Assembly: GCA_022539475.1 (NCBI GenBank)
Contig: VCMS01000085.1
Span: forward strand, 1 to 64,000
Source of the DNA: Gracilaria domingensis
Lineage: Eukaryota; Rhodophyta; Florideophyceae; Gracilariales; Gracilariaceae
Direction of reading: 5' to 3'
Length of the DNA: 64,000 nucleotides
In this document: in pieces, positions 11,826 through 52,260 of the stretch
Layout of the letters: every line of letters begins with the position of its first letter
Position numbering within the stretch: position 1 is the first letter of the stretch
Program-made: the position numbers and the translations under genes
Notes under the pieces: model-generated
What the model saw: only the letters and a program-made list of their open reading frames with translations
Told to the model about the DNA's origin: nothing
Database searches by the model: none

Positions 11826-11868
11826 TATGACTTTTGATGCGGACGTAGCTCACGAGTTGCAGGTGCAG

Positions 11869-12021: not shown

Positions 12022-12129
12022 TTGCGCCTACACCCGCTCCATCATGGGGAAATGGTACATGTAATATAGCGAAGTAGTGGTTAGCAGAAGCGGTCGATAG
12101 AAGAATAGATACGAATAAAACGGTATGAT

Positions 12130-13255: not shown

Positions 13256-14441
13256 TTACTCTATTCTCTCAGAATGTTGTTCTAACGTTTGCTTTTGTTT
13301 TTCATATCTTGCGTACAATTTGCGTTTAGCATTTTCTTCAGAACAGGGAGTAGTTATAGAATGAAATCTCTATACCTTTTCTCCTTTAGGCAGATTTTAT
13401 CCCATAAGGTTTTGCTGCTTTGAAGGTTTTTAAGGGTAGACGATCTAGACTAATAAGATAACCGAGCACGCAGAGACCTTTGTTCGATACTACGTTCACA
13501 GTTCCCTGCGAGGGACGGTGCGAGTGGCTGTAATCGACGAACGCTGGAACGGAGCACGACAGCCTTCCGTTCCAGCGGTACACGTCGCAATAAAAGGATC
13601 GGCCGGTGGTTTGCCGTACTTCTGGCCGGTCAGGGAAAGGAGGGTTCCACACATACGCGTACTTCTCCCAGTTTTCCCGCCAATAGAGAAACATCGTAGG
13701 CCGTGACCCCGCTTCTTTTCATACAAACTACTTCAACGTTGTTAAATAAAAGTTATCCCCCTCCCCATTACCCCAGCTTTGAGGTTAGATCACATGCATT
13801 TTCGGTGTTCTAGACCTTATGGGTGTGGGTACAAAGTTTTTGAAGATAGTTAAGCATTAAATATACTTTATCTAAATGACCTGTTCCTATTACATTACTT
13901 ATATTGTTCGTCCTTCTGCGGTTCGAATATGCCCTTTATGCCCCTTTAAAACCTACATCCTTTATCACTAATACCTGGCTAAGTTTTTGCTAGATAGAAA
14001 TGGATCATACCATATCATTATTAAAGTGCACGATACTAGTATGGAAACAAGTACAAAATTGTGATACTTCTGAGGAAGTAAGCCTTTGTAATACTTGGCG
14101 CACGCGTATAAAGTAAGGTAAACCATTAAGGGGAATCAACCTGTAATGGAGGTTGTCTTACTCTTCTTGATTTCTAAGCTCATGTTCAAGATATTCATAG
14201 TTTTCTCTACCTACTTGAATCCGTACATATAATTTATGACTAAATCATCCTTTCTTTATGGCAAATCGATGCAAAAGCTTCTCGTACTAGTAGCGTTTTG
14301 AAACAGTACTACATTACCCGTATATGGTCGTTAGTCGACTCTTTTTATACAACGAAACACCTTGTGAACATCAATCACATCCTTCTCATTCGTATAACCG
14401 CACCCATTCGCAAAACGAACCCTTTTGAAAGCTCTCAAAAC
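13256..14441. other. No gene recognised; A/T-rich spacer, possibly including a copia LTR
   Basis: The stretch follows the copia RNase H end and precedes the HAD-like gene. Short frames around 13,390-13,730 have no recognisable motif and no counterpart elsewhere in the window. Part of 13,260-13,750 may be the copia 3' LTR. Confidence 0.4.
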
Positions 14442-15314
14442 ATGTATAACTCAGAAGTTAGAGCCCAAGACGTAACCCCTCAGCAGCTGGCTAACGAAAT
14501 ATCCGAAAATGGCTAGGTCGTGATTAGTGATATTGACGGTACTCTGAAAAGAGCTGGGGACAACATTCCTGCCGAAACAGTCAACTGTATGAAGTACATC
14601 AATTCACGCGTTGGTTTTGGAATTGCTACTGGGCGAGATATAGAGGATGCCGAGAGTTTCATGGAGCACCTGGGTGGCTATACTTTTTGCATCTCTGGAA
14701 ATCAAGGCGCACGGGTGAGGTTATCCAATGGTACTGATATTGATCAAGATCTTGACTGGGAAGGCTACGAAAGATGTGCAGCCGAACTTGAGAGACTTGC
14801 ACTCTCATTAAATGAATCGCACGGACTTCACGAAGAGCGTCAACAAGCAGTTGTGAGCACTAGAAAAGACAGTGGACTCCCTAACTTCACATACAATGGA
14901 CTCTCGAAGTGGAAAAAAGAAGTTAACCCCGGTATTTCAAAAGTGTTGACATCTTTTCCGAACCTGGTTGCGTACCCTCAAGATGAAAACTGTGACATAG
15001 GCGACATTCGTCTCACGAAAAACAGTGGGGCGCTGGCCTTGGTTGAAAACGACCCCCAGTTCGAAACACGTTTAATCGTTGCTTTCGGGAATTCCTACAA
15101 TGATGGTCGTCTATATGAAATGGCAACCCTGGCAGTTCATGTCAACGGAGACGACCCTCCAGGAGCGGTAACATATCTTGTTGATGGTGTAGAGGACGTG
15201 CATGAGACCATCAGAAGGGTGGCAGAGCTGTACGAGTACACAAAATGCAAGTGTCAATGGTTTAGAAATGCTCTCGGAATTTGTTTCAAGTGCTACGATG
15301 TCTCTAATATTTAG
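14442..15314 (+). pseudogene. HAD-superfamily (Cof/type IIB-like) phosphatase homologue with an in-frame stop
   Basis: From ATG 14,442 the protein would have about 290 residues. Motif I is present as VVISDIDGTLKRAG, motif II as GIATGRD, and motif IV as VAFGNSYNDGRLYEMA, with the usual GDSxND reduced to GNSYND. The architecture resembles sugar-phosphate phosphatases of the Cof, trehalose-phosphatase or phosphomannomutase type; substrate not inferable. TAG at 14,514-14,516 sits directly before motif I, where the paralogue at 15,370-16,205 has Tyr, so the copy is either a pseudogene or restarts at the GTG at 14,520. The last 20 residues are Cys-rich (KCKCQWFRNALGICFKC). It converges on its paralogue with a 55-bp gap. 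Confidence 0.75.
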
Positions 15315-15369
15315 TTAGGATATGGAATCTCATTAATAAAAAGATCGTATATATCTCAATACTCTTTTA

Positions 15370-16205
15370 TCATTCTTGGTGTGTTTCATCGTGCTGCTTT
15401 TTCTCGTAGCCGTACAACAGAGCTTCCAACATACTTGTCGAATGCACATCCTCCACGTTTTCGAACAGGTTATGTACTTCACGCGGGACACACTCTTCTT
15501 TGACGTGAACGACGTCCACGCCTACCTCATGCAAAGGACCGTCGCTCAAAGCACTTCCGAACGTCACAACGTCATCCGTATCAATAAATCTCGGTTTACT
15601 ATCCACAAGATTTGCTGCTCCGCTTTCTTTTTTGTATCGCTTGTCCACAATCTCGCAACTTTTATCGCCGGGATAGATAAAAAACGCATCCATCTTCTGT
15701 AACAGATCCTCAATAGCAGAATCCACTTCTTCTCTCCACTGCCACAGATTCTTGTACACGAAATTGGGAAGGCCACTATCACTTCTGGTCTCCACAAACC
15801 CCTTCTCATCATCATTCACAATAACATGCCTCCTATTCAAATCCTTTGCAAGGAACAGTAGTCCGTCAACGGTGTGGTCAAGAGTGTGGTCATGGAATGT
15901 AGCCTTCATTCTCTGTCGTCAGAGAAACGGAGTAAAGCTCCATGATTCGCCGACACACGAAACTTATAGTCTCCGAGTCCTTCCATTTTCCCCTCCACGT
16001 CGCCCACATCACCCCCTGTAACAAGCCTGAAACCAACACGTTCGTCAATGAACTTCATACACTTCACAACTTCTTCGGGAATTGACTCTCCCTCTCTTCT
16101 CAACGTTCCATCAACGGAACTTAATATACCGTAACCATTTGCATATATGAGCTTAGACAAGGTATTGGGTGAAATTTCTGCCAAGTCTCCCTGTTCCTCT
16201 GCCAT
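15370..16205 (-). pseudogene. HAD-superfamily phosphatase paralogue, frameshifted and missing the catalytic Asp
   Basis: This inverted paralogue of the gene at 14,442 is chosen to start at ATG 16,205; in-frame Met codons lie further upstream. Matching blocks include VDGTLRREGESIPEEVVKCM, VGFRLVTGGDVGD, SGLPNFVYKNLWQW and FGSALSDGPLHEVG. The first Asp of motif I is replaced (SSVDGTL instead of SDIDGTL), which would remove the nucleophile of HAD phosphatases. The frame shifts at 15,906-15,909 (overlapping TGA and ATG), between FSDDRE and MKATFHDH. Both features argue for decay, or for a binding-only protein if the frameshift is tolerated. Transposon copy B begins just upstream of its 5' end. 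Confidence 0.72.
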
Positions 16206-16540
16206 TTTTTCTGATACAGTCATCATACTGTCACAAATCAAGCATAGACAGGTACTGCAGAGACATCTCATCTTCATGCTTCTCTTGAAACCGACCTCAA
16301 GTGCAGTTTCAGAAGTGGTATAACGCTTCATGTTCAATTGCGATATTGAATGCCATATCAGTGGTGCCACCAATGATGTTAACGATACCGAGCATGTTCC
16401 AATTAGACGCAACCGGACGAAAGACATATGAGACTTGTTCAATTACCAGCCTGCCGCACCTTTTCCATGTTCATATGTGTACCCTTACCATAATATACTA
16501 TTCTTAATACTCGCAAGACACTCATAATTTACTAATCATC

Positions 16541-19500
16541 TCATCCAGTTCGAGGCGCTCGCAGCCTCATTATTGGCAAATCTTCATCACTACTGCTCTC
16601 GAGCACTTCGGTTCTACCGGCCTCCGCTTCCAAACCAATCTCCACGACCACTTGGTCTTCTTCCATGTCAACCCCCACCCTGCCTATCAGACAACAGTTC
16701 ATCCTCCGCCTCCTCCCCCTCGTCACCATTGACAAACGTGGGTCGGAAATCCCGTACCCGATGAACTGCATCAGGTAGTGCATAGCCCTCTGGGACCATG
16801 TACATGTGGTATCTAATCAGCAAATCAATGGACTCAGGCCTATGCACCTTGTCCTTCCCACTTGCTCCAGCATGTATCACATCACCACGGCCCACGAGTA
16901 TAGAGTACGGTGAGATGGTTATCTTCTTCGCCAGATACACCTCCGACATCACTTGCAACTGTTGGTTGTTCATCCCCACCAGTTGATGGCTTCCTGCGCT
17001 TACCCAAAGAGGGAAGCCCTCTTTCGCAGAGGCCATTACAAAGTATCCGGTGTTACCAGTATTCATTGTTCCCTTCGTAACCAGACCAGTGAAGTCGCTG
17101 TGCAGCGTCTGGCGCTTGCACTTCTTCGTGGTCCACAGAAATCGACCACCAGTTTTCAGAGTGTACATCTTCACAGCTTCCCTTTCATTGTCTCATAGTC
17201 CCAAATCCGCCGCAATTGTACCCATTCGAACATCAAGTAAAGCACGCGCGCTTACAACCCACCTGAGCTCCTCATTATCCTCCGGCTTCTCCACCGTACC
17301 CCACCGTGTCGACATCACTCCCCCTCAAATGTTCCATCGCTCCCGTCCTTCCATCCTTCATCATCGTTGATGATTTGAACAAACGACTTCTGTTCCTCCC
17401 CTTTCCGTGTATCCGGCATTGCTCCATACTCATTCTCGAAGAAGTCTACCAACTCCCCTGACACATCTCCGAACTCCCGAACTTCTTCCAACTCATCCTA
17501 TTTAGGGACACCATTATCCGTCGCAAAGCCATCAAGCACGCAAAATCTATTCTGCCTTAGCTCAGCTTGCATTCGGGCTAAGAATATTTGCCCAAATTCG
17601 TCATGCTCCGTCGCAGCAACCCAAAGCACCTCTTCATCATTCATACCTGTCAGGCGAGTGCAAAGATACTGCATACCAAATGTCTCCGCCCGTAGGCGAT
17701 GTTCAGCCCTTGCAGCATGCCAAAAGACAAGATGGTGTACATCTCTGAGATTCGAGACACTCAGCAGCTCCGACCTATGTCCCTTCGGCAAGTGAATGAC
17801 TCTGAGCCAGGCGTCCTTGTGCTCAATTACGTTCTTCCCTTGCCATTCCTGCGGTCTCAGCCTGGCATACCCGCACCATGATGGGTTCGGTGGGCCATCA
17901 TATGGGTCTCTTCGAACAAGTCCGTGCTTCTCAGATTCCGGAAGAGCCGTAGGTAACTCGTCATCGAATGACCCCCCACCTGTCTCTTGCTGATCGTCTG
18001 GCGCAGCATCTTTCTCGACGGTGACAACCCGTGGAACTGTCACAGAAAGAAGCTCATCGTCATCCACAAATGCAGAACTGCCTGCGTTCTCTGCATTCGC
18101 TCCCTCTCCCAATGCCACGAACTGAAATTTCATCGACCTTCCTCTCAGCACATGTTCATTTAGTTGAGACATCAGGTCATCCCGTGTCATGCTGTTTAGA
18201 GTGGATCTAATCTGTTCTGTGAAAGTCTTTCTCTGTTTCTTCCTCGGCGGAGCTCGCTGTTCATCTTCAAAGCTGTCAAGAACTTCTATGGCACCTCGAC
18301 TTCGGCCGCGCTCAATTTTCTTATAACTCACCTGCGCCCGTTCACGTGCACTTCTTCGCGGCTCCTCTTCTTCAATGGCAGATGTTGCAGCAGCGGCAGC
18401 GGAAATACTCCTCTTCGTCACGGACTGCTGCACTGGTGCGGGGGGCGGATTTACCTTGAGCATTGTTCGTAATCGATTCTGAACGGAAGTTGTGGCAGTT
18501 ATAATTGAGTTCGTCCTGCTCCGAACGCGCGGCAATGTATTGAAGCTCACAACCTGTCCCAAGAGGAACTGATACACAGATGCGTTGTTGTCTCGGTCTT
18601 CAATGTCATCTTCATTCGATGGAGCAGAAAGACTGACTTTGCGTTTCAGGAACACTTCCATCGACTCTTCCTCGTTCAGTTCATTCCTGACTGTTCGAGC
18701 CGCGCGGAACATAGACACTGCTCTATCATAAAAGAAACCTCGAACCTCCTCAATTCTTTTCCATTGCTTTGTCTTCGTCGACTTGCCCTTCAATAGAAAT
18801 ATCTGAAGACAATCAAGAATGAAGGAAAACTCCTCGGCATTCAAAACATATAGCGGAGTATGGGACAGATGTGTAAGACCTATTTCACTCACACTCTCAC
18901 ATATATCCTCGAAATGGGCCAGCATTCCCTCACGAGACATGAGTTGCAGGGCGAAATTGGCATTTCTCAGATACTGACGCACTTGCGAAGTCCCAATCAG
19001 TTGGCTCTCCTTCAACACATCTGTCAATTTTGCAGGATCCACGTCTGCCGGCGTCACCCGCTCAACATCTTCAATTAGGATGGCGACCACACTAACTATA
19101 GAGTGTATCTTGTCTGCAAACATCATCCTTCGCATGGCACTCGTCGACTCATTGGGGTACGAAGCAACACATAACAATTCCTTCATCCCAACGGGCCTCC
19201 GATCTCTTCATATCAGCAGATTGCAACGTCAAAACTTGGCTAATCTCTTCCGCTTTGGTGCACCAGTCGCTGCCAAAATTTTATAGCTTTCAGAAAATGC
19301 AAACCATCTACAATGAAGCACTTCTTCGTTAGGCGTCCCTTGTCAGTATCCCTCTCTCCCGTAGTAGCATCTTGTAAGGCCACCACTGGAGAACCCATCG
19401 ACTGCAATATCCCCCGCTCCTCCATACTATTCACAAGGGATTCAACGTGGCGTTTACTTACTACACGGAGTGAATTGGGTGGAGCGTCCACGAAAGTGAT

Positions 19501-20422
19501 GTCAACTGTAACAACAACCATCTGGTAGTGATTAAGGTTCAGATTTGGGACCTTCTGAAGAATTCCTCTGTACGTCTTGCTCGCCAGAAACACTTGAACG
19601 TGCCATTCTTGGGGACAGAAGCACAACTTCATCGTCCTGCTGCTCCGCAGTTTGCGGTGCAGTTTGTGGTACAGATGGACCAGCTTCTTTTGTGGATTGC
19701 GCATCTGCGTCTGGAAGAGAACGTTTTATGATCTCATCTTTCTCTTCTTGCACAGCCTTCCCGTGCTGAACCGTCTGTTTCGACGCAGAAGATCCCCTTG
19801 TGTCGACGGTCTGATTCATCGCAGGAGATGCTTTTCTCGACCCAGTCGGCTTCGTAGCGGATGTAGACTTTGTTTGGCCTGTCACCATCGTAGCTCGCGA
19901 TGATCTCGTCTCCATAGTCCTCTTGTTAACAGACGACGGACCTGCCCGCGGAGGTGGTACTGATGCGCTACCTCTCGGTGTTGATGAACTTCGAATTGGC
20001 TCCGTGCGGCTTGTCGGCGTCATCACCTCACTCATAGCGCTCACCGTTCGTCGCTTGGACGCCGGAATGCTGGCTGCCACCGGTTCCATCATTTTCTCAT
20101 CCCAAGGAGCGGCCGTCTGGAGATCCTGGATGTATTGTGAAAGATCCAGGCCCTCCGCACGGTATGGATAGAACGTCTGACCGCTTTGACTGATGAGAAT
20201 ATTATGAACCACCACACGACCTGGGTCCAATTGCTTCCCGTTCAACTCGCGGCGTAGAACACTTCCAATTCCATGCAACAACGCTTCCCCGACTATCACC
20301 TTTCCTTCGTTCTCAATATCCATCTGCAGAGAAACCCGCATTCCACCTTGCAATGACCGAGTGCTCCGCCGTGTGCGAGGAGTGACGATTTGCGTACGCT
20401 TTCGAACACGGATCGGCTTCAT
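16541..20422 (-). pseudogene. ParB-like domain plus Fe(II)/2-oxoglutarate dioxygenase fusion protein, copy B
   Basis: ATG at 20,422 to a stop at 16,541 corresponds to about 1,290 codons across several frames. Residues 1-130 form a conserved domain of unknown type (GEALLHGIGSVLRREL, then GQTFYPYRAEGLDL). A Ser/Thr/Lys-rich linker follows, then the ParB-like module (KRHVESLVNSMEERGILQSM, FIVDGLHFLKA; about 19,300-19,520), a helical segment, a second linker with RRSARERAQ and basic clusters, and the C-terminal dioxygenase: TLHSDFTG (about 17,100), GRGDVIHAGASG (about 16,880) and LLIRYHMYMVPEG (about 16,810), giving the HxD...H...R pattern. The tail is acidic (ESSSDEDLP). At least five breaks are visible, including a stop near 17,500 where copy A has Trp, and the Arg of the ParB GxHR motif is Phe. 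Likely role: DNA-targeted oxidation or demethylation, an inference from the family and the methyltransferase neighbour. Confidence 0.72.
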
Positions 20423-20615
20423 GTTGAACAGCTATTGCATTGAAAGGTGTAGATCCACAATACGCTAGCTCTGAACGATACAAGAACGGAGCCGAGGCTT
20501 TAAATGGCGACTTACGCGGGGCACCCCCGCTTTCGGCAGCTACTCCCAGCGCACTTCCAGTATCGTCCGTGTCCTGTCCGCGGCCGCTCGCTTGCTGATT
20601 GTACGCTTTAGAGTC

Positions 20616-21067
20616 CCTGTGAGATAAGGTGATGCGCATTGGATGTCCATCGGATGAAAAATTGGGACATCTATGGGATATCAGTTGGATATCTTCTGCG
20701 CATCCAGGATATCCGAATTATATGCCGTGGTACCCCGTTGGATGCGCCTAATTGATGCCCATCACATGTCCTTGGGATGTACAAAAACTATTCCAAAGAT
20801 ATTCAAATGATGCCCGAAGAGATGTCCCATGGATGTCCGGAAATCCGCTGTACATCATTTAGACATCACAAAATCCAATGGACATCTCTTCGTACATCAT
20901 ATGCGTATCAGGCGGTTATTATTTGGATATACTTCATGCATCATCTGAGCATCATTTACGTATATCATATGAACATCCTAAGGAGATCAAATGAACATCT
21001 TCAGGTTTCGTAATTCTAACATGGTTTATCTGGGGGATATCATCCAGACATCAATACACCTCTCCGG
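20616..21067. mobile_element. Short non-coding insertion (MITE-like) with 5-bp target duplication
   Basis: GAGTC stands at 20,611-20,615 and again at 21,068-21,072, while copy A has a single GAGTC at the equivalent place (TTTAGAGTCGTGGAG), so the insertion is exactly delimited at 452 bp. The interior is A/T-rich and full of short half-sites of the type GGATGTCC, GGATATCC and GACATC spaced about 20-25 bp apart in both orientations. The ends are only weakly inverted (CCTGTGAGA against CCCGGAGAG). It encodes nothing recognisable. It inserted into copy B after A and B diverged. Confidence 0.8.
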
Positions 21068-21240
21068 GAGTCGTGGCGTACGCGCAACGATGACTCACGC
21101 GAGCAATGGTCGCGCTCTCTAATCGTGCTCTTCAAGTGCTTATAACACTAGCATAGTAGTCAAGAGTACACTCATTCATGTACAGCCGACTCCGGCCAAT
21201 ACACGTGAACAGCGGCGCCAGCGTACCGGCGGGCGGTTAA

Positions 21241-21470
21241 AGCGAAATCACTGCGGAAAGTACCTGGGGGCGTGTTTTTGGCGGTCTCTGGAGGGTGCCA
21301 GAATGTGGCCAGAACGTGCCCGCGGGCGGGGGGGGGTCCGGTCGTGTTAGGGTACCTACCCTAACACTACCGACCCCCTTTCCGCCCGCGGGCACGTTCT
21401 GGCCACATTCTGGCACCCTTCGGAGACCGCCAAAAACACGTCCCCCGGTACTTTCCGCAGTGATTTCGCT
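21241..21470. repeat. 230-bp fold-back palindrome with G-runs and TTAGGGTA core, copy B
   Basis: AGCGAAATCACTGC at 21,241 is matched by GCAGTGATTTCGCT ending at 21,470, and nearly the whole length pairs: CGGAAAGTACC/GGTACTTTCCG, GCCAGAATGTGGCCAGAACG with its complement, CCCGCGGGCGGGGG with its complement, and the GTGTTAGGGTA/TACCCTAACAC core near 21,355. It lies at the same place as the larger nested version in copy A, so it was present in their common ancestor. Confidence 0.9.
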
Positions 21471-21755
21471 GCACACGCCGTGCACATATATTAAACTAGA
21501 CAAAACTAGCGCTTCACATCCACTTGACCTGCGAGTATTAGCACAATACGCGATCTTTGCAGTAGCTCCGAGTCTCGACTAGGCCGACACGCGACACTAT
21601 CGCACCCGCTCAAAGCGACACGGACACCGACCTCAGAAGCGAGCGGACACGGACACGAACAAGACTGGCAGTGCGCTGGGAGGAGCTGCTGAAAGCGGGT
21701 TTGCCCAGCGTAAGTCGTCATTTAAAGGCTTGCCTTTGTTGTTTGCGCTGAAGCG

Positions 21756-24700
21756 ATGGATTCCACCGATGACGGAGAGGAGATACATCCTATCGACATG
21801 AGTGCTCCGCCTCCGGCGTTCCATGCATATGTCAGACTTTTCTTGGTTCTTCGCGATGCTTTGGCAAACAGCGATGGAGGCCCTGATCGGCCACGAGACG
21901 TGGGGTTTAGAGGGCTAATAGAGTTCTGCGCCGAGAACTATAAGGATATTCCGGAGGCAAGGAAGATGTTTGAGGAGGCCACTAACTCCAAGAACCTGCA
22001 GAGCTTGACACTGCAGCAGCTGCGAAAGAGTGTTGTGATTAACAAACATGTGGAGCAACGATATCTTGTAACGAAGCTTCTTGACAAGAAGGACGAGGAT
22101 GAAGACCAGAGACTCCGCGATCATTTCCTTCTCCCTATGGATATGGGTATATACCTACCGGTGCGATGCCTGGTTGGTTATTTCATGACCAGGAAAAAGC
22201 AGGTTCTGAAGACGACAGTGTTCATCCCACCAACAGCTGTGAACCCATTTCAGGTCGGTATATACTTATCATACCTTGGCCACGTAATTGGAGAGAACGG
22301 CAACATCAGAATGATGAAGAAGAAACAACCGAAAAAGAAACGAAAAGTGAACCATGCATCATCTGTGTACATACCCACTTTTACGTCGTTCTCCAAAGAC
22401 AACTGTGATCCACTGAGATTCGCTACCAGTGAGGTCGTATGGGCATGGGGTTGTTTTGCGGCTCATCTTGGATACACGAACGTTCAGCACATGGTGAAAC
22501 CATACATTTACATGAATATGCAGACGTTGAAGTATACAGCGCTAGAGACACAGGAGTCTGGTTATGCCCCGCCAAGCCAGAGTACTCGATTCAACACACA
22601 GGATGTGCCACAGAGCAGTACTAGTGGATCGGTGAAGACCTTGAGTGATGAATGCGATACAAACCTCCGAATACTGGCTAACGAAGTTTTGACAGACCTC
22701 GAAACCATATACACCCACGATAGCCTCTATAGCTTGCGGGTTGATCAGATGAGGAACTGGATAGAGTTTTCGGAGATACGGATGGATACCGTATCTGGTT
22801 CTGACTCTGGTGAGTTGCCTGCTCGATTTCAGAAGTTTTCGGAGTTGCTATGGAAACTGATACAGGATATGCGTCATGCGGCAGGGTTCTATGTCGGCAT
22901 TCACGCGAAACCTGATATTGAACTGACGAAAACCCCTAAAACTTCCGGTAATGCCGAACCTTCTTCGACCAAGTCCGCCCCACCCCCACCTCGTCGAGAG
23001 TATATGGACCTCATGAGCTCCGATAGCGACGACTTCGAGAAGCCGGTGAATCGTGCAAAGCATGAATCTCGGGTTGCCGGGTACAACATCCAAAAGACTG
23101 GTATTAGCCGCCCATGAAAGAGATATCCAGTTTCCTTCGAATGAATATGGACAAGGTGTGGAAGGGGATGAGAAAGTTGCACTTTGTAGCGTACAACTGT
23201 GACATGAAAGACCTGAGACACACAGATGAAACTTTTGTGAATCAGAGTGAGGTTTTATGGGGTGAGGCACAGCTTGTCCTAACCGACCCTCCCTTTAACA
23301 CTCGAAGGAAGAGGAGCAAACGGAATAGTGCTCACGATGTCTTCGGTGAGGATGACATGATCAGTACCACAGACTTAATAACTTCCGCGCTTCGGCCAGG
23401 TGGGCACTTCATTATATTCTGTGCCAAGGCACAGTTTCATGTTTGGCAAAGGATACTCTCGGAGACGGCGAGTACGAGAGATGACACTGGAAGCGAAAGT
23501 AAGCCCGAACTCATGCCTTCGTTTGAAGTGGATGGGAATCCACTGCTGTTCATTCGGGATCGAAGTAATGTTGGCGGGAATCCACGGAAGTTTGGGATAC
23601 AGCCCGTAACGAAGTAGGCCGTTCATGAGGTGAAGCGTGGATTGCGACCATCGGAGGAAGCCAGTCTTACTCCATTTGAGGAGAACAATTTCATTCCTTC
23701 TCCTTTCCCCGCAAACAGGAATGTAATTGACCAGGTGCAGAAACCGAGAGCGGGGGAGTGGTTGATATGGAAGGTAAATGAGCGAGGTAGTTCAGTACCA
23801 AGTGCGCACTACATAAGACCGGAGCAGAAGTCCAGGGAGGTGATGAAAGAGTTGATATGTCGGTTCACAAGACCGGGTGATCTTGTCATGGACATGTTCG
23901 GAGGAACGTTTTCTACGGGTATGGCGTGCCTATCGCTGACAAGAAATAGGAAGTTCTTGGGCTGCGAGAACAATAGGCCATGTTTCAGCCATGCGAAGCA
24001 CCATATAACGACTCTCATGGCCGAAGTTCTTCGCGGGGGGAAGAATGATATCGTGGTTGAACAGGAGGTGGTGGATGCTGCTTCAGCGACTTATGAACGG
24101 GTTCCACATCGGGACCGAGGTCGGGTTAAATGGGAAGCTCCATTTGGATACCCCCAGTACCAAGTGATGCCTGCACATATTACTCAGTTCCTAGGAAGAT
24201 ACTGGAAAAACTGGGAGTTTGTCCACAAGTGTGGACATCATACTGTATATCTTTCGGACGAGAAGTACCGAGGAGCTCTGAATCTAATGGATATCCATAT
24301 GCTGTTGACTGTTGAAGCCAATCGCTTTCGCTCACATGTAGCATCTTCTAAGATTCGACATCCCCGTGCTGGTATGGGGGCTGTTCACGGAACATAGGAT
24401 ATTGGCTGGGGAACCTTTCTGTCATGTTTATGGAACTTTGGTATACACGGATCTGACTAACCAAAAGGAAAGACACTTAACGTATGGAAGTAGCTGTTTC
24501 GGAGCAACTCCTGCGCGGTACAAGTTGTTTTCTATGATGGTCACTGTGACTGGTTCGGAGTCTCTGCACCTGAGGAACAGACCAGGACAGGCTCAGAATA
24601 GAAAGGAGAGCGAATTCTACATTTTCCCGGGGCCTTTTTGTATCGGAGGCTACATTAACGACGCCGGATATCATGCCGGGGATCCTGATTTATCGCAGCC

Positions 24701-24866
24701 CCGGTGGAACAGGACTCGAAGTGCCAATGTGCAGATGGCGGAAGCGAAGTCCGTGATAGAGTTTACGTCCGACCTTTCTAACTATGCTCTACTTCGTTGT
24801 AGAGCAGTAAGAGATATTGAGAGGGGCGAAGAGTTGTATTTCAACTGCGGAGAGCAGTACGCCTGA
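21756..24866 (+). pseudogene. DNA amino-methyltransferase (N6/N4 class) fused to SET domain, copy B
   Basis: The span corresponds to about 1,036 codons. Residues 1-190 are of unknown type; PKKKRKV near residue 195 is a classical nuclear-import signal. Motif IV LTDPPFNTRRKR is near residue 510. The cofactor-binding motif I, PGDLVMDMFGGTFSTGMACL, is near residue 711 and is preceded by YIRPEQKSREVMKELICRFT. The order IV then I, with DPPF, is the bacterial beta-class amino-methyltransferase layout (PF01555-like). A SET domain follows (about 860-1,035): HPRAGMG, HRILAGEPFCHVYGTLV, GGYINDAGYHAG, NRTRSANVQ, RDIERGEELYFNCGEQY. Breaks: a one-base loss near 23,105, TAG at 23,615, and one extra G in the G-run near 24,380 at the methyltransferase/SET junction. 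The final SET Tyr is Cys (FNCGEQY). Likely role: DNA adenine or cytosine-N4 methylation coupled to histone or other lysine methylation in the nucleus. Confidence 0.8.
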
Positions 24867-25142
24867 GACAGGGCTCCGACACTGGAGCAATAGATGAGCG
24901 CAGTACCGAATAGAAAGTAACTATGTTGTGAATGTTGCAGCTGCCTGCAATACGCATTGTACATGTACACTGGAGCTCTTCATCAATTTGTAACGGCGAT
25001 ATTTGCGACCCATTGCGAACCTCAAATTCGAAAAAAGCAGGAACTGCGGAGTCTCCCGGAATATCTGAACCATGCACTCCCTTCCGCCTCCCCCGCCCGC
25101 CCCCAAAGTATTTCGTTTCCTTACTCCATTTCTCTCCACAAC

Positions 25143-25934
25143 ATGGGTATAACGCCGAGAAAGCGAAATAGTGCGCAGCAGAACAAGAGTGGACAGAAGA
25201 AGAGAAGAGCATCGGATGATACGAATCAGGCTGCAAGCACCGCACTTCCTAAACGGAAGTCGTCTACAACGAAGGAGAGAATCAGTGGGCATCCTTCCAC
25301 AGTACTCTCTCGCCCATCTCACAGGGGAGTGTCGCCCGGGATTGCGTCAAGAATTAGTGGATCAGCGAAAGATGTCGTGCCTTCAACTGCCGATAATGCA
25401 AATCGTGCATCTGTGTCTGCTCCCCAAGAAAAGGAGTTAACTCGGCCCAGCGGGTCAGGACAGGAGGGCATGACAACTAGAACTGAAGAGGTTCGTATGA
25501 CACCAAAACCTTCACGTCCCCCGCCGATATCGAAGACCGGAGCTACTGCGGCACGGGTTACGCCGCCCAGTGGATCTGGACAACAAGGGACAGTGACGAG
25601 AAGTCGTGAGAACCCTAATATGTAAAGATCGTCACGTGCCTCCCTTTCTTTTAGAACTGGGGCCGCTATGAATCTTATTATGCCTCGCAATGGGTCCGGA
25701 CAAGGGAGAAAGACGATGAGAAATCGAGAGACGACTGATAGGCGAGTTACTTCTCGACCTTCCCCTCTTTCCAGAACGGGGGCCGTTGCAGCTCGTACGA
25801 GGCCCAATTCTTCTGATATACGATGCCATGGAGGAGGAAAGACACGGGAGTTGGAGCTCGGAGCCGTGCCAAGGGTGGACACAGAACGCCTGCAGCCTCT
25901 CGTGTCTAAGGGTATGGCACATGAGGATAGTTAA
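25143..25934 (+). pseudogene. Basic, Ser/Pro-rich protein with tandem peptide repeats, element cargo
   Basis: From ATG 25,143 a lysine/arginine-rich start (MGITPRKRNSAQQNKSGQKK) leads into repeats of about 40 residues with the core RPxPxSxTGAxAAR followed by PSGSGQxGxxTR. About three units lie between 25,430 and 25,800. TAA at 25,623-25,625 interrupts the frame, which continues in phase to 25,934. No known domain was recognised. The composition suggests a disordered, possibly DNA- or chromatin-binding protein. The gene lies 277 bp after the methyltransferase-SET gene on the same strand and is wholly absent from copy A because of the deletion. Confidence 0.5.
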
Positions 25935-26056
25935 CATAATCATTAATTTCCTATCGAATACAATTTTCCGATAACGAAATAACACCGAATCCTGCAGCAT
26001 TACCGGGGCTTGTCGCCGAAGAGGCTAGGTAAATACCGGAAGATATCCACACTGGT

Positions 26057-27573
26057 GTGAAATCAACCTCTATGAACAGACGTGATCTTTTAAATGAACT
26101 GAATTGCTTGAAAGAAAAGGTTAAGACGCTACAAGAGGACTTGATGGTTCGGGGAATTCTAGTGAAGGTCGCCCAAGAGCAGAGTACGGCTTTGAAAAGG
26201 AGACTTGAGGAGAAGGATCTAGTCATTGAAGGGCTAAAGGGTCCACTGAAACAGCAGGGAGATAGGAGCACACGTGCTAGTGAACCTGGGCAGACAGGTC
26301 GAAAGAAGCATAAAATTGAGGTGTGCGACGAGTTTCGAGGGGTTGCTCGAGCAGTGTATCACAACATGCTGACGTGGGCAAGGATAGAAACAAGTGAGCT
26401 ATGGCTCGAAGGTGAGTCGCTCACCCGAAATTGGGGTAACCGTGCCGAGAAGGTGGATGACGCAACTGAGAGTGGGGAAGGGCTTATTGAGCCGGACGAA
26501 GGTGGTTCATACATGGTTCCTAAAAACCCCTTGGAGCTCTTGAGCAGTTTTGGCATATTCACACCGTCGGTAGAGGCGGCCCAGATGCTTTGCTAAAGAA
26601 AATGGTTGAAAGCGAGTTGAAGGAGTTGAGCTGGGAAGGTATTACAAAAGCATATCTTACCGACAGGTGTATACTGGAACTTTGTGCAGATATGTGCCTT
26701 AGACAGAGAATGACGCAGACCATGAGTGACGTTGAGGGCGTTCGGAAGAGAAATACGAGGGATAAACTATTTCTGCTCCTGGGGTACGATCTGATTTGGA
26801 GAAGAACAAAGCTGGTAGAAGAGAATGCTGACGAACTCACAATGCAGTTGAAGGAAGCGCAGGTGAAAATACTGCGTCTTGACAAAAATGGTGTACCGAA
26901 CACTTCATGGTGGAGAAAAGCCCCATTTGTTCGTCTAAAGTACTCCAATGCGGACAATGTCGAGGATATGCCGACCGAAGATCAAGACTTGTTCTTTCGA
27001 AACCGTGTCGGGGTACAAGTACTGAAGGAGTTTATTCGGTATGATGTGAAAGACAAGGATACGGGCACCTTTTTAGATGGCACAATACTGTTGCTCGCAC
27101 GTTTGGACGCTTGGGTGTTGACGGTTGTGAGCCTTCTAAGTACGGATGTGTCAAGGGGTGGCCACAGACAGAAACTGTTTACAAAGAAGTTGGCCCCACT
27201 GCTACCTCTGTGTTTAAAGAATGTTGTGGCGGATGTTAGGCAACATGTCTTGAGGACCAATTCCAGCGAGTTTCATAATTATGGAACGACAACGGAAGAT
27301 TGGTCTAAGATTCTTGGTAATGACATGAGAGAGGCTACATTTGGACATCGAATGCCGTCGAACAGAAGACTTTACCTCACTGTGAATGAAAAATTTTTTA
27401 TTGACAGTGTGAGCCGAAGATTGGGATATAGTAGCGATTGTTTCGTTGGTGAATGCGATGAAAGAAATATAGAGTTCAAGGAAATGGACATAAACGATTT
27501 CGGAAGTAGCACAGTATCACAAGGAAAGGCACCACAAGGTGAAAATGTAGAGGATGGAGCCCTTAATGTTTAA
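26057..27573 (+). pseudogene. Unrecognised coiled-coil accessory protein of the element, frameshifted
   Basis: The first frame (26,057-26,596) starts with a coiled-coil-like heptad region (NRRDLLNELNCLKEKVKTLQ and following 60 residues), then a basic stretch (GRKKHKIE). The second frame (26,590-27,573) continues the same protein: a poly-A/T tract near 26,590 shifts the phase at QML/KKMV. The second part contains a helical region and ends acidic. Together about 500 residues. I recognise no family. It converges on the transposase, whose stop lies at 27,570, so the two 3' ends overlap by a few bases. Most simply a transposition or DNA-binding helper, comparable in position to second proteins of CACTA elements, but this is only positional inference. 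Confidence 0.5.
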
Positions 27574-30500
27574 GGCTGTACAAAATCAACATGCTCAGTT
27601 GGTCCTTCATCTGAATCGTGATAGAATCGATTGATGTAGAATCGGTGTTGAAACCATTGAAGTGGAGGACAAAAAGGTGGAGCAGGGTAGTTTGAGAGAA
27701 CAACATGGACAGTTCCCTGTAGTGCAGAAGCCGGAACCATCGCATACCAAGGAGTTAACTCTACGATAGTCTCCGTTTTTGAATGACGAGGGAACAGAAG
27801 AGTATGGTTCTTTCCATCGTTTGTAGCCCACCGTAAAGATATGCATTTCAATATTTGGTCGATGTTTGTTGCAAAGGGTAAAACTTCGAAATACGGGGCG
27901 AATGTCACCTCTGGTGCGGTAAGTGCAGAATCAATGAGAGATATTCGAATCAGAGCGACTATCTGGGCAACCCAAGTCTCTGAATCTTCTCCGCTTACCA
28001 ACACAGTGGAAAACGTTGGCTTTCCATTGGGACCAAATGCTGAGAAGCGAAGACTCGTTGGATGATGGGGTATTCGGGTCGTCCCAGCTTAAGTGCCTTA
28101 GAAGACGAATCGAAGCGTTCAAGAGTCGGAACAAAACCGCCTTTCACGAGGGCCGAATTCACCAGAATTATCCTTGTCTTTTCTGAGAGGTATGTAATAG
28201 AGTGTTCATCCAGTGTTTCTTTCACGAGACTGAGGAAAGGAGGAAGGGCCTGTTCACCAATTTGGTCAAGAATCGACCTTGTGTCCCTACTTGAGAACAT
28301 CTCTCTAACAGCAGTCCATGTTTTTGAACTGGACATACTTGAAACACAATGTTGAAGAGCTCGTAAAGTGAAAGAACGCCCTCTCATTGCAAATCGAGAG
28401 AGCTGTGAGGAAGTTCCTGGTAAACCTGGATTACGCTGGTAAGGAGTATTGACATTCCATTGCTTTCTAACATGTACGTGCTCAATGGAGCGAATAGTCT
28501 CCTCCACAGCCGTTGCTGTTCTTCTGGGCGTCTTTTTGTAGTGTCTATTAAATAGCAGGTGTGCATGTACCTATATGCCGGCATCGTAGTACTTGATACT
28601 TCCCAGACGGCGAATATCGTCTACGAGATGATCGAAAAGATGAAACTTCAGAGTTCCTAGTCTGGAGGGATGAAAATCCGCCAGAGTCTTTGTTGCGGAA
28701 CGCTTGAAGGCTTCAATCTCCGAACTAAGACACAGGAGAGAGCTTTCAGTCCAATACTGGTCACGATTGTATCTGAATAAGGTCGAAAGCAAGTCCGAGT
28801 ACTGATAGAAGGCGGTTGTGATTGGGGCAACGTCCTGTTCTCTACAGCATATGTCAAAGAATGCTCCTATGAAGGGGAAGACCATATCAAGTGCTTTGTA
28901 GTTTTTGGCCTCCAGCATTCCACGGAGACCGTCTTTCGTGAAGATACCATTCAAAGATTTGCCTTTCTCCTGCGTGGAGAAATCGATATGTAAACCTTTG
29001 GCAGGAGAATCGCGTTCTATGGCAGCTAGAATTGCGTTTGCATGGTTGAGAAGTTGGGTGCGTATCGTTCGAAATGAACGCGATGCAGATGTTCCTATTG
29101 TGGTGCACAGGGTGTCTGACTGCAGTCTCTCGATTGTGGCTGTTTTTATCAGCTTCGAGATGCCGAGATGCAAGTTGTGTAATGATTCGAATGAGAACAG
29201 ACTGTAGGGAGACAATCTTGGGATCATTCCAAGGCTTACGGAAGTTTCGAGGAACGAAGGAATGAGAGATATGGAATTTGAACGCATCAGAGTATCCGCT
29301 TGAGATCTCCTCTCCCTCGCACGACGTGGACGTCTTTGCGACTCATCTTTTTGTGCATGTTTCAAGATAGCTGTGTATGTCTTTCGGATGCTTTTCGTGT
29401 GATTTTGAGAACGTCCGTTGAATGAGGTGGGAATAGGACTGCATAAAGATGAGCGAGGGGCTTTGCATCTATGACACGGTCTTTCCGTTTTGGTCCCATG
29501 AAGAATGGACAGAATGTCCTTAGCCTCAGCAATATCCGCACAATAACTTGCAAGCAGAGGATGGCACACTCGACTTAGTTTGTCTTCGCCGATGAACTGA
29601 AAACCTTTCTGCGTGAGATTTAGAATGGGCTCCAGGACTTGACGAAGAGATTCTTGAAGGATTTGCATCCTGGACTCGCGTAGAGACTTGCTAGAAACGA
29701 ATGGCATTGCGTCTGCTTCAGATGCGGAAACCTCGATCAGTGTGGTAGGGAAGTATGCCACTACTGTGAGGTCATCACGGATGCACTTACGGCGTAGCTC
29801 GTCGGAGAATTTGACAAACATGAGGTGAAGAGGATAGGCGGTAACCGATGTTTGCTTTAGAGTTGTTGAAGACTTATCGGTGTATACCTGCAGAAGACCT
29901 ACGAAAGATTCACTGTAACTTATTTCTTGGGAGTACCACACTATTCTACTATCCAAAGAGCCCATGACCATTTCCTTAAGTTTTGAGGTGGCGTCTCTTG
30001 CGAGAGAGCCGGACATGGGGTGAGATATTTTCGTGGAGTGGGTCTGAAGTATAGGGTGGAAGACTGTGTTTTCGTTATTAGCCAATTGGAGCTGTTTCAC
30101 AAGTGTCTGAACAAGGTCTCTCGTATAGAGGCTGGCGTTGAACTTACATCCTTCTGGCGAGACAGTTCTTCGATTGAAACCGTCTTTTGAGGCGTATCGT
30201 TCGAAAATGGCGTTCTTTAGTTCTATACAGCGCTTGGAACTTGTTATGGTCTCGTTGAATCGCTTTTGCGAGAATCGCCGGTCCCGAAGTAGCCCAATTA
30301 GCTCTTCTGCTTCACGATGACGGAGATTGGAAGCTACCGAAGCCAGACAAGCCTTGAGATAATCCATATGCAAATCACCGAGGGCCTCCTCAGAAGGCAC
30401 TGAGCGAGAACTGCTTCCGTGTTCTCGCTCTAATGCCGCGGGACCCTGGGAAATAGGAACACAATTCGAAGTGTCCGGAATAAGAGGAGCGCACGGAGTG

Positions 30501-30880
30501 GGGTCAACGATGTCCTCGGACACCGGAAGCTCGGGAAGGCGACAAGGAAAAGTGACCGTTTCGGAAGATGCGGGCGCGGGCTCAGAAAGCTTGAGACGCG
30601 TGTTTCTTCAAATGGGCCGCCTATTGTCGTCTTCCAGTGCGGCTTTCAGAAAAAACGGGCAATGGTTGACATGCTGTTGAAGAGGTAACACTCCTCGGCG
30701 AGTAACGAACTGGCACCCACGCTTCTCATGTGTACAGTAGTAGACCATGGGAAGAAGAAATGAAAGAGAAACGACGACGAAGACGGCAAAAGAAGGTCGT
30801 CCGAGAGAAGAAGAAGGTCGGGCGACATTCAAGATGGACGTCAAGCTGAGAACGGAGAATATAATTTGAGTGTGAATCAC
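27570..30880 (-). pseudogene. CACTA/Plavaka-like transposase, copy B, disrupted
   Basis: Over 90% similar by eye to the copy A protein across its length, with the same finger (CTHEKRGCQF...HVNHC), YTDKSSTTLKQTSVTAYPLH, HRCKAPRSSL and LHNLHLGISK. ATG 30,748 immediately before the finger is the likely start, since the upstream Met of copy A is Leu here. The frame is broken between 30,608 and 30,523, between 28,571 and 28,507 and near 28,000. The native C-terminus, lost in copy A, is seen here (SDEGPTEHVDFVQP). Not functional as it stands. Confidence 0.8.
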
Positions 30881-31640
30881 CTGCTCTCGTTCAAATAGGA
30901 ACGTAGGTACACGTCAACCTCAACACAAGGGTGTACTTATCTTATTATCTACCACTAGTTATAAACCTGTGGTTTCGCAACGTTGTACGCTGTACACCTG
31001 TCCAATCTCGCCCAGAAAAATAAATCTCTTCCCTCCACCGCCGCCGCTCGGCAGACGTCCGACCTTCTGTTACCGTCGTGATCGGTGCCATCCACACCCT
31101 TGCATTCTACTCCACTCCGTCGTACTTTTTTCCGCCCTCGCACTCGCTACGAAGTAGAGGGCGGAGAAGAGAATGAGGTACGCTTCAAGCGCATGAAGTT
31201 CATGTCCGCTTAATATACCCCTCCATAAAGCGGACATCATCCGTATCTCACGGATGTATTCCGTGCAGTCTTTTCGTACGTTCTTCCATATACTTCTACG
31301 TATCTTTGCTCTACACTAACCCATCCTCAACACGTTTTTTCGCGCTGTGCGAGATGTAAACGGCAAAAAATAAGCTTTGGGTTACCGGGTTCCGGTTTTC
31401 ACCCTCCAACTCGTTCCATTTGTTCAACTACGTTCTTCTTACGATATGTTTCATCTTTTTCTACGTCTTGCTACTCACATTGACTTGGATGAAGGTAACC
31501 ACTCTTTGATGTGCGTCCCTTGTATTTCTTCCGACTCAGTCGTCATAAACGTCGGACGTTTATGACGACTGTAAGTACGCGACCAGTTTCATTTCGTTTC
31601 TTAAGATCGATCTCTGACTGTTCGTGTAACCTATCACGCT
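30881..31640. other. Upstream and subterminal non-coding segment of copy B
   Basis: This corresponds to 10,348-10,937 of copy A: TATA-like AATATAATT close to the transposase start, a conserved block with AAACCTGTGGTTTCGCAACG, a CCGCCGCCG tract near 31,040, and the partial hairpin near 31,150-31,230. No gene is supported. Confidence 0.55.
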
Positions 31641-32105
31641 GTATTGCCGATCTTGGTTCACTTTGTTGCGCCATACGCTCTAGCTTCTCGCGTCTTGCGC
31701 TAATTTTGGTTTGTTGGCGATCTTGGTTGACTTGGTTGTGCCATAGACTCTTGTTTCTTCTCGCGTCTTGCGCTACTCTTGGTGTATTGGCGATATTGGT
31801 TCACTGGCTTGCGCGATAGGTTCATCATTGGCGATCTTGGTTGCTTAGGTTGCGCCATAGGATCGTCTCTCTTTTCTCGCGTCTTGAGTTTCTTTTGATG
31901 CATTGGCGATATGGTTTGACTTTGTTGCCTCATAGGCTCGCGTCTCCTCTCGCGCCTTACATTGATCTTCCTGTATTGGCGATCTTGGTTGACTGGCTTG
32001 CGGGATATTCTGATACTTGGTTGCGACATAGGCTGCTCTCTCGTTTATCGCATCTTTCGCTATTTTTGCTGCATGGGCATTCTTGGTGTCCTTGCTTGTG
32101 AGTTC
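31640..32105. repeat. Degenerate tandem array of about 70-75 bp, subterminal in copy B
   Basis: Six or so units share the pattern GGCGATCTTGGTTGACTTGG, then TTGCGCCATAGGCTC and TTTCTCGCGTCTTGCGC. Unit starts are at about 31,648, 31,719, 31,790, 31,831, 31,906 and 31,979. The last unit grades into the GGTTGCGACATAGGCTGCTC block found inside the 373-bp repeat of copy A, so the A and B arrays appear to be alternative expansions of the same ancestral sequence. Confidence 0.75.
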
Positions 32106-32401
32106 TCGCTTCGCCATCTTTCAAAGTTTACGATGAATCGATTGTTGCTAATCTAACCGATCCCTTTCCTTCTTCTTATTCCTTTTGCGATTTACTAGGT
32201 CTCTAGACTTTTCTAGCGCAACGTTTCTGTTTTGCTTCATCAATGGTACGTTCCATCGTATTTGAAATGTATCCAATGGAGCATCGGCTAACTTATGAAT
32301 TCTTTGTGTTTGCATATACAGGTAAATAACTTCTGATGCGCACGTAGCTCACGAGTTACAGGTGAATTGAACGTGCAACGCGTATGCATCTGGGCATGGT
32401 T

Positions 32402-32530
32402 CCTTACTTGACGAACCGAGACGATGAGGCGCTTCGCGCCTCATCCTCTCGGTTCCTCAAGTAAGGATATGTGTTCTAGCGATACCGCACTTTGGTGCAG
32501 GTGCACTCTGCGGCAGCTACCGCAGATTGC
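32402..32530. repeat. Hairpin cluster near the right end, copy B
   Basis: CCTTACTTGACGAACCGAGA pairs with TCTCGGTTCCTCAAGTAAGG (one mismatch) around an inner GATGAGGCG/CGCCTCATC stem (32,402-32,465). A CTGCGG/CCGCAG stem follows near 32,508-32,526. Same features as at 11,869-12,021 and 48,310-48,450. Confidence 0.75.
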
Positions 32531-32956
32531 GCCCACTCCCGCTCCATCATGGCGAAATGGTACATGTAATATAGCGAAATAGTGGTTAGCAAAAGCGGTT
32601 GATAGGAGAATAGATACGAATAACACTTAATGATTTCACAATGGACATCATCTGTACTAGCACCACTATTCCATGCGTTGCAGGGTATCATTCCGCAGAA
32701 GGTATCGTGTAATGTGCACCTTCATGGAAACTGAACCTAGACTTCGCGAAATACCTTTCAGGTAGCCCTCGACTAAAGGAATAGCACGAGTGAAAAACCC
32801 ACCAGTATTTACTGCACAGCGATTCTGGACGACCCAAGCAATTATCTCCAAAATTTGAAATAATTGATCTCGAATTTTTTTAAAAAAATTTACTGGACGA
32901 CCTTTGCCAATTTCTGTACGACCCTCGCCAAAAACTAGCTTCTGCAAGAGACAGAC

Positions 32957-33415
32957 GCTTGGCGACTCCGCTCGCGCTCGACGAACGGCCCCGACTGTCT
33001 CGTTTCGGCCGTCGTGAGTGCTGTCGACGGCCTTATCGACCGTGCTGCCACCGAGCCGTCGGACCGCCCCCTCTGTGACTCCACGACCCCTCTCGAGCAC
33101 ATCGGATCCATTACCCGCGCGCTGCCTAGAACCGGCCTTGGGCTAAACCTGCGTCAGGTCCCGACCGGCGACCGCGACTTCTCCAGAATAGTGAGGGCAG
33201 CTAACCGACGACGAGATGGTTATGTTCTCGTCCGGCTACAAAGTGGCAACGACGTCGACCACGGGGTCACTATCGATGACCGCCGCCGGCTCATCTTGGA
33301 TAGTGCAGAAGAGTATCCGCTTCGCCTCAGCGAAGGGACCCTCCACCTTTGCGCGGGAGGATCCAACGCTCGCGTTACCGAAATGCGCGAGCTATATCGC
33401 CAACGCCGTAGTTAG
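32957..33415 (+). pseudogene. 5'-truncated open frame, possible papain-like peptidase fragment
   Basis: The frame is open from the transposon B end at 32,957 to the stop at 33,413-33,415 (about 150 residues), so copy B probably inserted into it. The C-terminal part, DGYVLVRLQSGNDVDHGVTI, then RRLILDSAEEYPLRLS, has a His followed by a D/N about 15 residues later in alternating strands. This recalls the second half of papain-like or OTU-like domains, but the Cys half is missing. G/C-rich composition differs from the neighbours. The identification is weak. Confidence 0.35.
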
Positions 33416-52258: not shown

Positions 52259-52260
52259 GA

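Follow-up and report, generated by a model that had tools for sequence, protein, structure and literature searches.

The window analyzed here, 64,000 nucleotides (positions 1 to 64,000, forward strand) of contig VCMS01000085.1 (C85) in assembly GCA_022539475.1 of the red alga Gracilaria domingensis, holds three partial copies of a giant and apparently modular cut-and-paste transposon of the Plavaka superfamily. In its long form, the element carries, together with its transposase, a gene predicted to encode a DNA amino-methyltransferase fused to a SET lysine methyltransferase, and a divergent gene for a protein that combines a likely ParB/Srx part with a probable 2-oxoglutarate-dioxygenase (2OG) part. 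The reading proposed below, to which a probability of about one half is given, is that this element sets its own chromatin state, most likely countering silencing by the host.

A Plavaka Transposon with Defined Ends

Copy B (13655–32957), recognized by homology to other copies, is the remnant of such a DNA transposon: its right terminus is intact, and 3.5–4.0 kb are missing on the left. Copy A (1–12453) is cut by the start of the window and ends at its right terminus, 12453. Copy C (47902–52260, minus strand; inverted repeats I1–I6) is partial and inverted, with the right terminus and the transposase only. A sequence-only reading, from which this analysis started, had described A and B as two copies with the same gene order, and repeats at 85–97% identity indeed connect 1–12453 with 16748–32957. 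It had also seen in copy A a deletion joining the methyltransferase to the transposase. This is borne out by the copy on contig C211 (copies elsewhere in the genome are called here by their contigs): 5100–7188 of the window corresponds to C211 10728–12821, and 7188–10644 to C211 16653–20113, with ∼3.8 kb lost, namely, the C-terminal half of the methyltransferase, SET, and an unknown gene. Copy A holds the ParB-2OG gene, four palindrome cores, and the N-terminal part of the methyltransferase fused to the transposase by the deletion at 7188.

The element had been placed at 16541–32956. The right end stands, and the left start moves out to 13655, where the element sequence of B begins, so that copy B also holds two HAD genes. 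Copies C179, C195, and C218 extend 3.5–4.0 kb beyond the left side of B, up to one common terminus.

The transposase lies at 27570–30880 (minus strand); its frame is broken in B and open over 1,100 amino acids in other copies. The Pfam profile of the Plavaka transposase domain, PF18759, matches at 28574–30607 (−) with an E-value (E) of 2.6e-17 and at 6997–10374 (−), in copy A, with E 2.2e-16, the scores being 63.5 and 60.4 bits against a cut-off of 26.3. What had been called a CACTA/Plavaka-like transposase is, in both copies, a Plavaka transposase, and its 1,100-amino acid frame has no stop in 37 of the 65 genome matches listed.

The right terminus (32943–32957; reverse complement CGTCTGTCTCTTGCA) is common to the three copies of the window, as the earlier reading had noticed for their terminal sequences; homology stops here in the copies that reach it, and the flanks differ. 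The element ends are CGTCTGTGTTCTGCA on the left and, inverted, CGTCTGTCTCTTGCA on the right, i.e., imperfect 15-bp inverted ends that match each other and read CGTCTG...CAGACG. Fungal Plavaka elements fall into the terminal classes PlavakaA (TGT..ACA) and PlavakaB (CATCA..TGATG), according to passages of PMC12730594. The termini differ from both, and the element is a Plavaka-type transposon outside these two fungal classes. From end to end, C179 spans 20,928 bases and C218 spans 23,746 bases, of which ∼2.4 kb are unknown bases.

In the genome searched (77.9 Mb, 680 contigs), 570 left and 551 right ends were found with up to 2 mismatches in 32 bases, and none with a reversed control pattern. 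Ends listed on contigs up to C65 (94 of the 100 left and 91 of the 100 right ends listed) gave 49 pairings, with five right ends used twice, and most pairs are 9–11, 12–15, or 19–24 kb apart. A 2-bp target duplication was seen in five of the ten end pairs whose flanks were read (1/16 expected per pair): four of four copies of 9–11 kb and one of six copies of 19–24 kb. Three further copies, the large C179 and C218 and the small C65, have no matching duplication, and the small C65 copy abuts another partial copy. The small forms clearly transpose, because 2-bp duplications flank four of the five small copies in this combined set. The large form transposes in at least one case, because one copy of the 20-kb class has such a duplication; in most of the large copies examined, matching flanks were lost or were never there.

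The genes keep their distances from these ends. Whole-genome counts of co-occurrence are lower bounds, taken from the best candidates scored and the first end positions listed. On contigs up to C71, apart from C68 and C69, 28 of the 114 HAD matches listed were considered, and for 21 of them a left end on the list is 4.0–4.9 kb away (of the seven exceptions, one is past the ends listed); of the seven methyltransferase matches considered, out of 55 listed, six have a listed right end at 10.4–11.2 kb. The ParB gene is divergent from the methyltransferase in 13 of 55 cases, those where both are listed within 8 kb, and on the same strand in none.

Wherever the genes are present, their order is constant in the copies retrieved, with C65 having no left genes and C195 no right end. 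From left to right, the long form contains a coiled-coil-like open reading frame (ORF), a Rossmann-like gene, HAD 1, HAD 2, the ParB/2OG-like gene, the palindromic center, the methyltransferase-SET gene, the unknown gene(s), and the transposase. Both halves are transcribed outward from the palindromic array, and the transposase is convergent. In open copies, none of the methyltransferase-SET, ParB-2OG, and transposase genes has an intron, and each reads as one frame from end to end. The claim that this is one mobile unit is upheld by its defined ends, which number in the hundreds genome-wide, and by the constant order of its genes.

The DNA Amino-Methyltransferase-SET Fusion

The fusion gene occupies 21756–24866 (plus strand) of copy B. 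Pfam N6_N4_Mtase and SET both match the pieces of B (E 7e-11 and 6e-6) and copy C179 (E 1.4e-14 and 1.2e-7), and in open copies the two domains share a single frame of 1,055 amino acids, as the fusion claimed from sequence requires. In B the gene has decayed: besides an in-frame TAG, it shows two frame shifts and, close to the C-terminus, an early stop. Of 55 genome matches listed, 25 are stop-free, nine of these within the 1,055-codon frame.

A DPPY/F motif placed before the F-x-G-x-(G) motif marks the beta class of amino-methyltransferases. Copy B reads DPPF and then DMFGGTFSTG, and other copies read DPPF and then DMFAGTFSTG, C195 alone having DPPS. Together with the N6_N4_Mtase match, this motif order predicts a beta-class DNA amino-methyltransferase. 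Among solved structures, the methyltransferase comes closest to the adenine methyltransferases of the DpnA type and CcrM (E 1.3e-8 to 4.4e-6). As for the SET part, the motifs YINDAGY and GEELYF(D/N)YGEQY occur in C211, C163, C195, C179, and C218; within the second, B reads NCG where these five copies read DYG or NYG, and in C65 this second motif was not found. The profile and the catalytic NH-like and GEEL..Y motifs point to a SET lysine methyltransferase. Against solved structures, SET matches KMT2A weakly (E 0.08).

Among 5.8 billion proteins, with 6,205 candidates scored, one relative of the full fusion was found, P0001 (1,015 amino acids), which has DPPY and FSG. It suggests that the fusion is old and constrained outside the Gracilaria genome, because it keeps both domains at 41% identity over 98% of the length. 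The methyltransferase of the element matches the phage family PHROG 67 with E 6e-22, and that of P0001 does so with E 4e-26; the latter also matches 92 phage records, the best at ∼25% (YhdJ, DpnA). Among viral contigs, the methyltransferase alignment found short matches in three contigs only.

The ParB/2-Oxoglutarate-Dioxygenase-like Protein

The second gene (16544–20422, minus strand) encodes ∼1,300 amino acids in open copies and is broken in B, where it is recognized by its motifs: the VDGLH box lies in the ORF at 19240–19704, and HSDF, HAG, and RYHMYM lie in the ORF at 16668–17174. In the genome, the frame reaches 1,308 codons, and 30 of the 58 matches listed have no stop within the match. 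The box reads LHF in B and LHR in A and four other copies.

Its family of relatives comprises P0002–P0014. Those found on ENA, LGN, and JGI contigs are 972–1,268 amino acids long and share 27–49% identity with P0004 (one, 85%). The closest named proteins are from Gracilaria domingensis itself (92% and 88%), and a fungal host was set aside on this ground. Over two stretches, of 385 and 212 residues, one of the deposited models, P0002, is 98.2% and 99.5% identical to window copy A, with lower identity (64–90%) over other stretches. The deposited G. domingensis models P0002 and P0003 skip the 2OG core. Their names, mediator subunit 15-like and cell-wall-anchored SasA, are misleading.

The identity of the two parts was examined by alignment and by profile. 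In the ParB-like region, D-G-x-H-R is invariant in all ten aligned sequences (10 of 13 extracted, P0005, P0014, and L018 having been dropped); P0003, whose box is degenerate and which was not extracted, reads VDDLHG. PHROG ParB-like families match this part weakly (E 0.0014–0.0018). Its top match among solved-structure profiles falls exactly at VDGxHR and is SbnI, a serine kinase, at a nonsignificant E of 0.35. In the 2OG-like region, H-x-D, H, and R are invariant in nine of nine aligned sequences, and G-G-R-F-L, P..S.F, and R-Y-H are shared as well; 2-oxoglutarate/Fe(II) dioxygenases have an HxD...H iron triad and a distal Arg, set in a double-stranded beta helix. These nine come from 11 extracted sequences, with P0005 (near P0004) and P0014 dropped; P0014 has the motifs, and H, D, H, and R would persist with it, and P0007, which ends before RYH, was not extracted. 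No ParB or 2OG family scored in Pfam and NCBIfam scans of these proteins, and the full-length profile, compared with solved structures, gave matches in the low-complexity middle. Of the ParB-dioxygenase protein claimed at the outset, the ParB/Srx part is likely, by weak profile and motif, and the dioxygenase identity is probable, by motif. A role as an eraser is a possibility that follows from this reading of the motifs.

Two assignments were tried and set aside. Membership in the TET/JBP family was rejected, as Tet_JBP is not among the seven Pfam families matched at E ≤0.1 by the 15 sequences scanned (three of which have no 2OG core), which leaves room for a remote kinship. A viral origin was rejected too, since the ParB-2OG alignments found no relative among the viral contigs scanned.

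The Palindromic Center and a Probable Exchange of Modules

Between the divergent ParB and methyltransferase genes of copy B lies a giant palindrome (21232–21479; core TGTTAGGGTANNTACCCTAACA). Its 248 bases fold at −147 kcal/mol, against −47 ± 4 for shuffled sequence (z −24.8). The core occurs five times in the window, where 0.00 are expected; genome-wide, it is found at 1,167 sites, against none for a control. At 4137–4782 and 21232–21479, the giant palindromes stand in arrays with ∼110 bp spacing and TTAGGG/CCCTAA cores. The assembly gaps (runs of N) of C218 and C179 fall in the palindromic region.

These sites belong to the element in most cases. Among the first 50 listed, 47 are at most 13 kb inside an element end on the list; on the two contigs examined, zones of this kind make up 17% and 6% of the length. 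In copies of ∼10–11 kb, they lie 5.3–5.8 kb from the left end and 4.8–6.0 kb from the right end, and in longer copies the left distance is 8.1–8.8 or 10.6–11.3 kb. The element looks tripartite, with a palindromic center between a left and a right module, each part coming in a small number of distinct lengths. The palindrome could also be an independent repeat, since in C195 it occurs past the element end and 3 of the 50 listed sites have no nearby end; the other 47, inside elements, argue against this.

Divergence differs between the two halves of the same pair of copies. C163 and C211 show no difference over 3163 positions of methyltransferase-SET, 46 differences over 2730 positions in the left genes, and 3.4% in ParB-2OG. 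Because of this discordance the halves look exchangeable, and one can infer that left and right modules have been exchanged at the center. In C195 (L018–L020, L048), an inverted left end of 3.36 kb, 95–96% identical to the left part of the same copy, stands in place of the right end, which again points to recombination between halves.

A sister element of 9.2 kb, C65:8070–17240 (L015–L017), has the same ends, palindromes, a transposase remnant with a broken frame, and a different left module. It shares with the long form 468 bases of the left end and 3.9 kb of the transposase side. Its left interior has no match in the long form and encodes the N-terminus of a flavin amine-oxidoreductase (Pfam E 1.6e-23), taken here to be a phytoene desaturase-like fragment; the module is a captured, host-like one. 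This left module lies within paired ends in four cases (C27, C32, C64, and C65). By their size and by this shared other module, many other copies of ∼10 kb probably have no epigenetic cargo either.

The idea that the two writers, of DNA and lysine methylation, and a possible eraser travel together needs a corresponding adjustment. Where present, they keep the same gene order; methyltransferase-SET and ParB-2OG sit in different halves and look separable. The epigenetic genes need not travel together, because the halves diverge discordantly and the C65 copy has ends and a transposase remnant with no such cargo. Transposase copies consistently devoid of cargo, with the cargo alone elsewhere, had been named as a ground for rejecting the unit; this pattern was not found, and the association is by module, not absolute.

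Other Genes of the Element and Its Surroundings

HAD gene 1 (14520–15314, plus strand), of the HAD-IIB phosphatase-like type, has an intact D-x-D-G-T motif; its C163 copy matches Pfam Hydrolase_3 (E 2e-10), and 102 of the 114 genome matches listed have no stop. It faces a paralogue, HAD 2 (15370–16442, minus strand, two ORFs), whose C179 copy matches Hydrolase_3 with E 1.4e-4 and which may be its pseudophosphatase partner. Farther left, the Rossmann-like gene has its best family match in NCBIfam apbA_panE at only E 0.062, and the leftmost ORF, coiled-coil-like by eye, has no Pfam match above the cut-off.

The unknown gene(s) at 25143–27573 (plus strand), with no Pfam match, consist of a low-complexity N-terminal part of ∼500 amino acids and a C-terminal part of ∼330–350 amino acids in a shifted, overlapping frame. 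The change of frame, at 26524–26600, occurs at the same place in L003–L007 (at least four or five copies), with ...EGGQMLC stop overlapping ...GPDALLKKMVES; it reflects a frameshift site, a fixed mutation, or a pair of genes whose stop and start overlap.

Subterminal tandem repeats (31614–32364) differ in number among element copies. Copy B has an insertion of ∼450 bp (20616–21067), a gap when compared with C163, C195, and C179, which has apparent GAGTC flanks and is read as a small nonautonomous element. Outside the element, the broken frames of a retroelement at 34603–38613 (−) match reverse transcriptase and RNase H and, weakly, an integrase zinc finger. Scans of the window for tRNAs and Rfam families gave none.

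Proposed Mechanism and Alternatives

How would these enzymes act together? The methyltransferase would write an amino-methyl mark on element DNA, most likely N6-methyladenine, which is favored because its nearest relatives are DpnA/CcrM/YhdJ-type enzymes, and the fused SET domain would write lysine methylation at the same place. The ParB/Srx-2OG protein would load next to its own promoter, onto the palindromic array, and oxidize a methyl group on DNA or on a histone. Jointly, the enzymes would set the chromatin state of the element copies, most likely countering host silencing; the array would stay open, the transposase would be expressed, and the palindromic center would be the point of module exchange by breakage and recombination. 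Control of its own silencing appears to be the best mechanism among the readings compared.

A more specific form of this proposal is tentative. In it, the element would stand for a new class of self-marking transposons, and exchangeable modules would meet at a parS-like palindrome array that is at once bidirectional promoter, loading site of ParB-2OG, and recombination point; the right module would write a DNA-amino-methyl and a histone mark by way of one fused enzyme, the left module would read and oxidize, and the outcome would be a self-propagating chromatin domain.

Several observations count against a self-set chromatin state. Matching target duplications flank one of eight large copies. 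The 2OG part has no match among Pfam, NCBIfam, or solved-structure profiles. In HAD 2, a Ser takes the place of the catalytic Asp (SSVDGTL), both in the copy of the window and in the five others where the motif was found. The host-like fragment captured by the sister elements shows that cargo can be a mere passenger. Finally, some ratios of nonsynonymous to synonymous change (dN/dS) are high: against copy B, 0.60 for the SET part, 0.73 for the ParB-containing piece, and 0.81 and 0.71 for the unknown gene, and among young copies 0.66–2.75 for HAD, a range that does not demonstrate constraint.

A first alternative is self-restraint: the methyltransferase-SET protein would lay a repressive mark on its own copies and limit transposition. 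The precedent is the N4CMT/SETDB1 system of bdelloid rotifers, with 4mC at transposons (PMC8885841, in the passages on this system), and it would fit the persistence of more than 500 ends of each kind in a 78-Mb genome. That precedent is, however, a host enzyme and not a transposon gene, and a purely self-repressing gene could hardly persist in a transposon without shielding against damage to the host. Self-restraint is rated as rather unlikely.

Another alternative is that the cargo has no function for the element, its genes having been captured like the phytoene-desaturase-like fragment. In favor are the many copies, one read (C65) and the others judged by size, that have no epigenetic genes, the 32 of 42 listed genome matches that span nearly the whole C65 left module (97–100% identity), and the HAD ratios among young copies. 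Selection speaks on the other side. The dN/dS values, from Nei-Gojobori codon counts of one reference frame against each other copy, are below 1 against B for every tested cargo gene, among them 0.39 for the methyltransferase, 0.42 for the 2OG part, and 0.44 and 0.50 for the HAD genes, which resemble the 0.41 of the transposase. The ratios of B are pushed up because it is a dead copy with neutral changes of its own, and those between young copies are based on small numbers of changes and vary from 0 to more than 1. For the methyltransferase, the range is 0.36–0.46 against A, B, C195, and C65. These values show some constraint on the genes of the element, and the long open frames in many copies, as well as full-length relatives elsewhere at 29–41% identity with catalytic motifs kept, also disfavor mere passengers, which are rated as improbable.

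Slightly less credit still is given to base hypermodification, in which the 2OG-like part would hydroxylate a base methyl that the ParB/Srx domain (SbnI-like, kinase-fold) and HAD would process further, shielding element DNA against silencing or the nucleases of the host, in the manner of phages. The set of genes, 2OG-like and ParB/Srx domains, two HAD genes, and a phage-type methyltransferase, would suit this role. The SbnI match, however, is not significant, HAD 2 has no nucleophile, and the Pfam matches of window and copy proteins include no glycosyl- or other base-modifying transferase. An accidental neighborhood, in which at least two repeats became nested or fused in the palindromic region and then multiplied by segmental duplication rather than transposition, would explain the scarcity of target duplications in large copies and the central assembly gaps of C218 and C179, and is highly improbable in view of the termini at both ends, the near-constant distances to the genes, the 20-kb copy with a 2-bp duplication, and the small versions with both ends, mostly with duplications.

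Relation to Known Systems

Giant Plavaka repeats and the partnership of Plavaka with an epigenetic enzyme are already known, the former in Amoebidium and the latter in fungi. Plavaka elements are also reportedly mentioned in recent red-algal genome papers.

Fungal Plavaka elements carry TET/JBP dioxygenase genes thought to fight silencing (Kojima 2025, PMC12730594, in the parts of the paper on these genes). The likeness extends to a Plavaka-type transposase, a DNA-modifying dioxygenase as second gene (here, dioxygenase-like by motif), and a proposed escape from silencing; target duplications are 2–3 bp there and, in 5 of the 13 copies examined here, 2 bp. In contrast to those described there, the present elements are red-algal, end in CGTCTG..CAGACG, and encode a dioxygenase not recognizably TET/JBP by profile. 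The words ParB and adenine are absent from the main text of that paper. In its account of other work, SET genes occur in HarbingerS and MuDR transposons of oomycetes; these are likewise DNA transposons with a SET gene, of other superfamilies, and the passage on them mentions no fused DNA methyltransferase.

The giant Plavaka repeats of Amoebidium, for which matches in red algae were noted (PMC11244446), contain many tyrosine recombinases, and the passages on them mention no methyltransferase-SET, ParB-2OG, or palindromic center. In bdelloid rotifers, amino-methylation and SET enzymes act jointly on transposons, in silencing (PMC8885841). There, as predicted here from sequence, a bacterial-type DNA amino-methyltransferase works with a SET enzyme on eukaryotic transposons; the rotifer enzymes, unlike those of the element, are host genes for two proteins, and N4CMT is fused to a chromodomain and not to SET, as described in the portions of that paper concerned. 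ParB/Srx domains are joined to adenine methylases in phage and plasmid mobile elements and are linked to counter-restriction (PMC5512222, in its passages on these domains). Unlike in those prokaryotic systems, the two genes are here divergent neighbors, one fused to SET and the other to a 2OG-like domain.

A search of open-access PubMed Central full text, with subscription papers outside its scope, found no prior description of such a transposon. As far as this search shows, what is new is the methyltransferase-SET fusion, the ParB-2OG protein, the red-algal host, and the palindromic center with interchangeable halves.

Significance

Within the scope of open-access PubMed Central, this would be the first transposon described to encode a DNA amino-methyltransferase fused to SET, and it extends Plavaka elements with epigenetic cargo from fungi to red algae. 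Its many copies offer a natural system for asking (i) whether a mobile element writes its own chromatin state and (ii) whether amino-methylated DNA plays a role in red algae. The palindromic center and the interchangeable halves, in turn, suggest a way for transposons to shuffle their cargo.

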